Source: Candidatus Gastranaerophilales bacterium (lineage in GTDB: Bacteria > Cyanobacteriota > Vampirovibrionia > Gastranaerophilales > Gastranaerophilaceae). Taken from it: a stretch of 32,375 nt of DNA. How positions within the stretch are numbered: the stretch's first letter is position 1; the number at the start of each line of letters is the position of its first letter. Positions 2 to 15,358 of this stretch are shown in pieces. The notes below the pieces were generated by a model. It worked only from the letters and a program-made list of their open reading frames with translations. It was not told the origin of the DNA and searched no databases. The stretch is taken from the NCBI GenBank assembly GCA_944323655.1, contig CALUTL010000019.1, positions 1 through 32,375 on the forward strand, read 5' to 3'. A program made the position numbers and the translations under genes.

Positions 2-418
2 AACACCTGCAAACTTGTAAAAAAATACGGAATGGAATTATGCTGCGGAGTAATTCTCGGGATGGGCGAAACTGTTGAACAAAGAGTTGAAATGGCATTG
101 GAATTGAGAGAAATTCACCCCGAGTCAATTCCGATTAACATTTTGATGCCGATTAAAAACACACCGTTTGAAAACTACTTTGACAAAATTGATGAGGAAA
201 ATATTTTAAGAACACTTGCAATATTCAAAATAGCAAACCCCGATTCAATCTTGCGATTTTGCGGCGGCAGAATGAGGTTAAGTGAAGAAAATCAAATAAA
301 AGCACTCCAATCGTGTGTCGAAGGGATTTTGACCGGAAATTACCTGACTACAACTGGAAAATCTCCCAAAGAAGACCTTATGCTTGTTAAAGAATTAAAT
401 AAAACTCTTGTAAAATAA
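2..418 (+). CDS. bioB: Biotin synthase, C-terminal part (5' end outside window)
   Basis: This is the C-terminal 138 residues of a radical-SAM biotin synthase, which inserts sulfur into dethiobiotin in the last step of biotin synthesis. The frame is open from the first bases of the window, so the gene begins upstream; the internal ATG at 32 is not the start. Family landmarks visible are the GVILGMGET segment, ESIPINILMPIKNTP, the conserved Arg stretch ILRFCGGR (E. coli has VRLSAGR), and the tail GNYLTTTGKSPKED that matches the usual G(Y/C)LTT-P-x-ED ending. The N-terminal CxxxCxxC cluster motif lies outside the window. The stop is at 416-418 and no clear terminator follows. The identification is firm; completeness cannot be judged. 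Confidence 0.93.
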   Translation, partial: NTCKLVKKYGMELCCGVILGMGETVEQRVEMALELREIHPESIPINILMPIKNTPFENYFDKIDEENILRTLAIFKIANPDSILRFCGGRMRLSEENQIKALQSCVEGILTGNYLTTTGKSPKEDLMLVKELNKTLVK

Positions 419-471
419 AATTTCGGTAGCCTATCGGGTAATATCATTTAAAATATCTTTTTTATAGAATA

Positions 472-500
472 TTTTCATATTAAAGATATTAATTTATAAT
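472..500 (+). promoter_or_regulatory. Putative sigma-70 promoter for the small LuxR-type gene
   Basis: A -35-like TTTTCA (472-477) is followed by a 17-bp spacer and a perfect TATAAT (495-500). The ATG of the next gene is at 512, so the predicted transcript would have only about 4-5 bases of leader. This is sequence inference only. Confidence 0.5.
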
Positions 501-511
501 GGAAAATTATA

Positions 512-676
512 ATGGAGAGCTTAAAGACAGAAATTACCCTGAGTGCGCAGGAAAATTTAATTCTGGAATTAATAAGAAAAAATCACACAACGAAAGAAAT
601 AGCAAAAATTATGGAAATCAGCCACCATACTGTAAAATCTCATATCTACAAAATAAAGAGGATGACTTTAAAATAA
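512..676 (+). CDS. Very small LuxR/GerE-type HTH DNA-binding protein (54 aa)
   Basis: A 54-residue reading frame starts at ATG 512 and ends at TAA 674-676. The translation contains LSAQENLILELI, then TTKEIAKIMEISHHTVKSHI and YKIKRM, which is the LuxR/GerE helix-turn-helix: L(S/T)xxExxVL, an xxEIAxxLxIS recognition helix and the TVKxHxxxI signature. The protein is essentially the bare HTH, with no receiver or ligand domain. A longer frame starting at 499 (+1 relative) overlaps it but encodes a low-complexity, unlike-protein sequence and is rejected. There is a stop in frame at 497-499, so the start cannot lie further up. No good SD is present and a TATAAT box lies 11 bases upstream. It sits between bioB and ispF; its targets are unknown. 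A second solo HTH of the same fold is at 15137. Confidence 0.75.
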   Translation: MESLKTEITLSAQENLILELIRKNHTTKEIAKIMEISHHTVKSHIYKIKRMTLK

Positions 677-713
677 AACCATGCTAATATGACCTAAACA
701 AACGGAGAAAGAA

Positions 714-1190
714 ATGTACAGAACGGGTCTTGGCTATGATATTCATACCTTAAAGGAAGGCAGAGATTTAATCATCGGCGGTGTAAAGATTACGCATGAA
801 AAAGGACTTATGGGGCATTCAGATGCGGATGTCCTTGTTCACGCAATAATTGATGCCCTGCTTGGAGCTTTAGCTATGAGCGATATCGGCACTTTGTTTC
901 CCGACACGGACAACAAATACAAAAATGCCGATAGCACCGTTCTTTTAAAACACGTTTACGAAAAAATTCTTGAGAAGAATTACAAAATCGTAAACCTTGA
1001 CAGCAACATTATTGCGCAGGAACCCAAAATGATGCCGTATATTCCTAAAATGCGCGAAACTTTGGATAAAGTTCTAAAAATCGGACAGGAAAATATAAGC
1101 ATCAAGGCAAAAACAAACGAAAAAATGGACGCTGTCGGACAAAAACTTGCAATTGAAGCACACGCTATTGTTTTATTAAAGAAAGTATAA
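714..1190 (+). CDS. ispF: 2-C-methyl-D-erythritol 2,4-cyclodiphosphate synthase
   Basis: IspF (158 aa, normal length) converts CDP-ME 2-phosphate to MEcPP in the MEP pathway for isoprenoids. It is a cytosolic trimer with a zinc site. The sequence shows the signature GYDIH at the N-terminus with metal ligands Asp9, His11 and His43, the GHSDADVL loop (34-41), LGALAMSDIGTLFPDTD, and the C-terminal AKTNEKMDAVG substrate-binding segment. GGAGAAAG at about 702-709 is a good SD for ATG 714. The following secreted-protein gene starts 10 bases after the stop, suggesting co-transcription. An MEP pathway is usual for cyanobacteria-related and most other bacteria. No irregularity is seen. Confidence 0.97.
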   Translation: MYRTGLGYDIHTLKEGRDLIIGGVKITHEKGLMGHSDADVLVHAIIDALLGALAMSDIGTLFPDTDNKYKNADSTVLLKHVYEKILEKNYKIVNLDSNIIAQEPKMMPYIPKMRETLDKVLKIGQENISIKAKTNEKMDAVGQKLAIEAHAIVLLKKV

Positions 1191-15136: not shown

Positions 15137-15358
15137 GTGCAGGAAAATGAGGATATGGAAGATATTCACTTAACAAATAGGCAAAAAGAAGTATTAAAAT
15201 GTGTTATCGGCGGGGACAGCAACCCTGTAATTGCAAAAAAGTTATCTATCTCATTATCAACTGTAAAAGCTCACGTCAGCGCTATCATCGACAAATTCCA
15301 CGTTGAAAGCAGAATTGACGTAACACGTGAGGCGATGAAAAGAGGGTTTGATATTTAA
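15137..15358 (+). CDS. Solo LuxR/GerE-type HTH regulator (73 aa)
   Basis: This 73-residue protein is almost only a LuxR-type DNA-binding domain: LTNRQKEVLKCVIGG, then SNPVIAKKLSISLSTVKAHVSAII and DKFHVESRIDVTREAMKRG. The signature residues for the four-helix GerE fold are all present. There is no receiver or autoinducer domain, so any control must come through a partner or its amount. The start is GTG 15137, preceded by AAGGAG (15119-15124) at 12 bases, slightly far; the next in-frame ATG (15155) would still leave the whole HTH. It stands alone between a 371-bp regulatory region and convergent lepA. A smaller protein of the same kind is at 512-676. Confidence 0.85.
   Translation: MQENEDMEDIHLTNRQKEVLKCVIGGDSNPVIAKKLSISLSTVKAHVSAIIDKFHVESRIDVTREAMKRGFDI

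Follow-up and report, generated by a model that had tools for sequence, protein, structure and literature searches.

A selected 54-residue GerE/LuxR-type protein, probably a single-domain DNA-binding regulator, lacks the fourth helix and the loop glycine of its family

Introduction

The window, i.e. the whole stretch of 32,375 nucleotides analysed here, comes from a Candidatus Gastranaerophilales bacterium and contains near its start a very short open reading frame, h54. An earlier note, made from the letters alone, read it as a stand-alone LuxR-type helix-turn-helix (HTH) protein, overlapped by a longer and spurious frame. Is the short frame a gene, and if so, what can a protein of 54 residues do with only part of a GerE domain?

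Results

The frame and its neighbours

The gene h54 lies between bioB and ispF, Table 1. Its position and length are exactly those given in the earlier note, and the longer frame is there as well. At 165 nt, h54 is longer than the minimum that common bacterial gene finders apply by default. The window edge cuts bioB, and the remaining fragment obtains 158.7 bits with TIGR00433 over 1-133 (the NCBIfam cut-off of 225 is for the whole protein) and 80.7 bits with Pfam BATS. After ispF, positions 1198-1563 encode a small protein, probably secreted, that has no Pfam match at E<=0.03 and is also found 3' of ispF in the orthologous loci that extend that far.

Table 1. Features of the window discussed in the text.
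Feature	Positions	Strand	Remarks
bioB (biotin synthase), C-terminal part	2..418	+	Cut by the window edge; NCBIfam TIGR00433, Pfam BATS
bioB-h54 gap	421..511	+	First half (about 425-450) better conserved across 11 orthologs
Spurious 62-aa frame overlapping h54	499..687	+	Other phase; no Pfam match at E<=1; stops in 10 other orthologs
h54, 54-aa three-helix GerE/LuxR-type HTH protein	512..676	+	ATG to TAA
Candidate extended -10 element of ispF	682..690	+	Identified by eye just past the h54 stop; ortholog alignment
ispF	714..1190	+	37 bases beyond h54; 208.5 bits with NCBIfam TIGR00151, cut-off 116.45
73-aa solo GerE protein, contrast case	15137..15358	+	Pfam GerE 57.0 bits, profile 3-56/57

The short frame is conserved and under selection

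The genus was sampled with 14 genomes, the present one included, and a gene was counted as an ortholog when bioB and ispF matches lie on either side of it. Some match to h54 at E<=0.001 exists in 13 of the 14 genomes, many of these being other GerE proteins, and a syntenic ortholog in 11. All 11 orthologs are intact, 54 or 55 residues long and share the start position. In one genome (G013) bioB and ispF are adjacent in tandem without h54, in a second (G001) the two genes are arranged otherwise and neither has h54 beside it, while in a third (G004, 87% complete) neither the ortholog nor ispF was found and the neighbours of bioB differ. The gene is thus dispensable. G013 encodes elsewhere a 57-residue three-helix protein (L028) that scores 60.0 bits against the ortholog profile.

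The closest pairs of orthologs show dN/dS values of 0.04-0.27; distant pairs reach up to 0.64 (one pair), and for many of them the ratio is undefined because dS is saturated. Nonsynonymous changes per site are fewer than synonymous ones in all seven close pairs (Fisher p 0.016 to 2.8e-10), and the nine orthologs of 54 residues have 32, 22 and 44 variable sites at codon positions 1, 2 and 3. The 62-residue frame is open only in the present genome and is interrupted by 1-11 stops in the other ten of the 11 orthologs. The codon usage score is 7.9 bits over 62 codons for the longer frame vs 15.6 bits over 54 for h54. The earlier impression that the longer frame looks random receives weak support from these values, but by codon usage the frame is not plainly random, so it is the comparison with relatives that decides.

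Judged by its sequence, h54 is a real gene, an expressed-looking and selected reading frame. The earlier note was right to prefer the short frame over the longer one, given the GerE match described below, the intact orthologs and the stops in the relatives. The two checks that it had proposed, conservation of the frame in relatives and a GerE HMM score, both came out in favour of h54.

Could h54 be a decaying fragment of a response regulator, heading for loss? Part of the domain is indeed missing and some members of the genus are without the gene, but 11 intact orthologs of fixed length, their conserved C-terminus and the selection against amino-acid change make decay scarcely credible.

A phage origin of h54 was also considered and rejected, as none of the 79 pattern matches from a profile scan of IMG/VR was confirmed as a relative.

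Family assignment and predicted fold

Compared with Pfam GerE (PF00196), h54 obtains 39.6 bits (E 4e-10, cut-off 23.5) over profile positions 2-43 of 57. It also passes the cut-off of Sigma70_r4_2, with 28.7 bits against 25.7. Five other three-helix proteins score 29.0-42.8 bits with GerE, all above the cut-off, and their matches end at profile positions 36-47 of 57. GerE is the best family for all six three-helix proteins tested, h54 included. Only about ten residues precede the HTH domain in h54 and there is no N-terminal autoinducer-binding domain.

According to the AlphaFold model, built from three sequences, h54 consists of three helices (residues 12-22, 27-34 and 38-53) with none after, and the pLDDT is 92-96 per ten-residue block over residues 11-50. 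The HTH and its recognition helix are present as the last two helices, with a core pLDDT above 90. The residues that are invariant among the orthologs are located in the HTH (the recognition helix, S37, H39, T40 and V41) and at the extreme C-terminus (KIKRM).

Foldseek returned nothing at E<=0.001 for the model, as is to be expected of a chain of 54 residues, and its highest-ranking rows are DNA-binding domains of the GerE/NarL type, for example GerE itself (1fse, TM 0.79, rmsd 1.2, 46 columns). In a second structural comparison (VIA), GerE/NarL-type families obtain Z-scores of 7.7-8.7, an archaeal transcription factor 9.1 and a sigma factor 8.1. As the latter two score like the GerE-type rows, the fold alone cannot settle the family, and the assignment therefore rests on sequence.

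Since the Sigma70_r4_2 cut-off is passed, the HTH of h54 could work like sigma region 4, contacting RNA polymerase or a -35 element, and the protein would then be more like a piece of a sigma factor than like a LuxR regulator. The sigma factor chains among the VIA rows are in line with this. However, the GerE score is clearly higher, GerE is the best family throughout the three-helix proteins tested, and h54 carries HTVKSH, which we take to be a signature that places it with the LuxR type. We regard the sigma-like reading as quite improbable.

Helix 4 and the loop glycine are missing together

The fourth helix of the GerE domain is absent from h54, as the profile match ends at position 43 of 57 and the model has three helices, and all 11 orthologs stop ten residues past the column of the recognition-helix histidine. 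The glycine in the loop between helices 1 and 2 is also missing, replaced by N in h54 and by N, K or E across the 11 orthologs. The statement in the earlier note that h54 carries all key LuxR/GerE residues is consequently wrong.

In related regulators both elements belong to the dimer. An excerpt of the ComA study (PMC4797271) describes the GerE-family domains as four-helical, with the fourth helix as the dimerization interface. For DegU, the excerpt of PMC9263151 attributes about 64% of the dimer interface to helix 10 and counts as part of it the glycine in the loop between helices 7 and 8, the family's most conserved residue. The remaining 36% or so of that interface would fit h54 being a normal solo GerE regulator that forms the usual dimer via helix 1 and the loops, so that the loss of helix 4 matters little, and so would its GerE score above the cut-off and its intact HTH. 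However, helix and interface glycine are both gone, in several separate groups, and single interface mutations in DegU already reduce dimerisation and DNA binding (same excerpt). We consider the usual dimer unlikely for h54.

We surveyed the tails of GerE-like domains in loci fetched with h54, the 73-residue protein and the ortholog profiles, counting residues after the recognition-helix histidine. The 160 distinct domains comprise 26 whose tails are 10-16 residues long, 97 solo domains with tails of at least 20 and 37 in frames longer than 140 residues. The tail lengths form two groups, 10-16 and at least 20, with none at 17-19. The loop glycine is absent from 24 of the 26 short-tailed domains; it is kept in 91 of the 97 longer-tailed solo domains (absent from six) and is missing from one of the 37 in long frames, which by our reading of its sequence appears to be a sigma factor and not a GerE protein. 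Two domains (L149 and L209) are short-tailed yet have the glycine, and four or more longer-tailed domains are without it. Two of the six glycine-less longer-tailed domains (L023 and L037) have, by eye, no recognisable GerE helix 4 either.

The loss of helix 4 and the loss of the glycine go together in this sample, whose members were chosen for similarity and are not independent of one another: h54 orthologs make up 11 of the 26 short-tailed domains, and one 59-residue family of the same genus contributes five. The short-tailed domains are spread over 12 of the 14 genus genomes, six genomes of a second genus (g11), two of g2 and one of g8. In a FastTree phylogeny of 158 distinct domains the three-helix label, which wrongly includes one response-regulator domain of L037 because labels were given by locus, requires 4 changes vs a mean of 27.1 (minimum 23) in 200 shuffles. 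The labels fall in two clades of 11 and 13, with local supports of 0.74 and 0.70. The alignment of 43 columns is too short for a decision on orthology between the g1 and g11 genes.

A second three-helix family of 58-60 residues (MNK...EKFILELLK.NF..KEIA; L025, L026, L027, L029 and L030) was observed in five genomes of the genus, all of them with h54 as well; its neighbours differ from genome to genome.

Linkage to ispF and regulatory DNA

Three-helix genes lie beside ispF in all six genomes sampled from g11 as well. There the gene ends toward a DNA-alkylation-repair gene (alkD) that follows ispF (PF08713, 51.1 bits for the copy in L112), except in L197, where it ends toward ispF itself. In 26 ispF loci from other genera, some of which end at contig ends, no h54 match was found within flanks of about 1.5 kb. 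It is unlikely that the linkage in two genera arose by chance. Common ancestry of the region may lie behind it, and a regulatory role does not follow from it.

Within the gap between bioB and h54, a block after the bioB stop (about 421-450) is better conserved among the 11 orthologs than the rest. By eye, this block is in part an imperfect TANNC-N4-GNNTA repeat. It is possibly a promoter or operator. The sequence CTATCGGGTAATATCATT, the 18-mer at 431-448 in this conserved upstream block, occurs exactly only once in the genome, namely before h54. With 2-3 mismatches, five further sites appear (0 for the control pattern), all inside longer open frames. We do not claim a regulon from it. Upstream of the g11 genes, the GGNTAATAT block was not recovered as a common element.

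The candidate extended -10 element downstream of h54 reads TGNTATAAT in 7 of the 11 orthologs and TGCTANTAT in the other 4, the present window included, so ispF may have its own promoter. A promoter consensus scan gives no support, since it returned 3 sigma-70-like sites vs 2.1 expected in shuffles, and this element is not among them.

The position of h54 between bioB and ispF in 11 genus genomes, together with the three-helix gene beside ispF in g11, could suggest that h54 specifically controls one or both genes; for ispF, such control is a guess from position. Against it, the g11 gene is convergent with alkD or ispF and not upstream, ispF may be transcribed from the candidate promoter above, none of the 26 loci in other genera has such a gene nearby, and G013 keeps bioB and ispF in tandem without h54. 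Specific control of bioB or ispF therefore appears rather doubtful.

Other stand-alone GerE domains

The 73-residue solo HTH protein pointed out in the earlier note is real, and 12 other genus genomes have matches to it, at 55-97% identity. The note had also suggested that this lineage uses stand-alone GerE domains as regulators. This holds in so far as such domains are carried: the present genome has 11 GerE matches, six in frames of 220-236 residues and five in frames of 58-130, and all 14 genus genomes have at least one GerE match in a frame of up to 99 residues among the matches listed. The grouping of h54 and the 73-residue protein as one kind does not hold, as the latter matches the profile to position 56 and is modelled with four helices. 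That model was made from a single sequence with a mean pLDDT of 62, and it is therefore a weak contrast to h54.

Two further solo genes were observed. One encodes a 68-residue GerE protein (L005, G000:C7:30286-30450) that by eye adjoins an amidase-like and a phage-like protein; it may be part of a conserved prophage or phage-derived element. Frames of about 69-79 residues in its profile range recur in most genus genomes among the matches listed. The other, an 84-residue gene (L004/L033, G000:C3:126189-126356), has a full-length response regulator of its own family about 500 bases away on the opposite strand, and by coordinates this pair recurs in G002, G009 and G011.

Discussion

Proposed function

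We conclude that h54 is probably a functional single-domain DNA-binding regulator, in which helices 1-3 of the GerE/LuxR/NarL domain are kept and helix 4 and the loop glycine are lost. Because the HTH is intact and both the recognition helix and KIKRM (HTVKSH...KIKRM) are invariant, DNA binding is the likely activity of h54. As the canonical dimer parts are missing, binding by h54 would involve a monomer or rely on another, non-canonical contact, and not on a helix-4 dimer. With no input domain and no cysteine, it would be controlled through the amount of protein. It would act on its own upstream region and perhaps also on the neighbouring genes, and autoregulation via the conserved part of the gap is possible judging from the alignment. 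Alternatively, h54 could occupy half-sites that belong to dimeric NarL-type regulators of its own cell.

We tentatively extend this to a class, although here we are more doubtful than convinced. Gastranaerophilales may have a lineage-specific class of 49-60-residue three-helix proteins with a GerE fold that lost the dimer interface as a unit and are monomeric DNA binders. Such proteins would either recognise half-sites that belong to dimeric NarL-type regulators of the same cell, or use a new oligomer contact on the conserved KIKRM end. A single ancestral three-helix copy in the vicinity of ispF would account for the linkage observed in both genera.

Comparison with known systems

A search of the literature on regulators of Gastranaerophilales/Melainabacteria and on stand-alone GerE proteins found no such three-helix proteins, most subscription literature being outside that search. 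GerE of Bacillus subtilis (74 residues) is like h54 a single-domain protein of the same fold (phmmer E 0.0015). It has the fourth helix and a C-terminus of the GRSQ... type, whereas h54 ends after the third helix. In the sister cyanobacteria, PedR (Ssl0564) of Synechocystis is a small stand-alone LuxR-type regulator that senses redox by Cys80 and forms a disulfide-linked dimer, as described in an excerpt of PMC13421787. In contrast, h54 has no cysteine in its 54 residues and scores 26.1 bits with the PedR equivalog NF052366 (NCBIfam), below its cut-off of 120.

The response regulators of the NarL/DegU/ComA type share the HTH and recognition helix with h54 and supply its top structural rows but differ from it in their receiver domain, helix 4 and dimerising loop glycine (excerpts of PMC9263151 and PMC4797271). 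Compared with sigma-70 region 4, h54 scores lower than with GerE, and no other sigma region is present in its 54 residues. The LuxR solos of quorum sensing share the name and the HTH with h54, but have an autoinducer-binding domain (PMC4338825, abstract), which h54 does not.

The short regulators of these gut bacteria should be classified by their missing parts and not by a Pfam match alone. The family is described as tetrahelical and dimerising by helix 4, and selected stand-alone proteins that lack both this helix and its glycine are a natural experiment on what an isolated HTH core is capable of.
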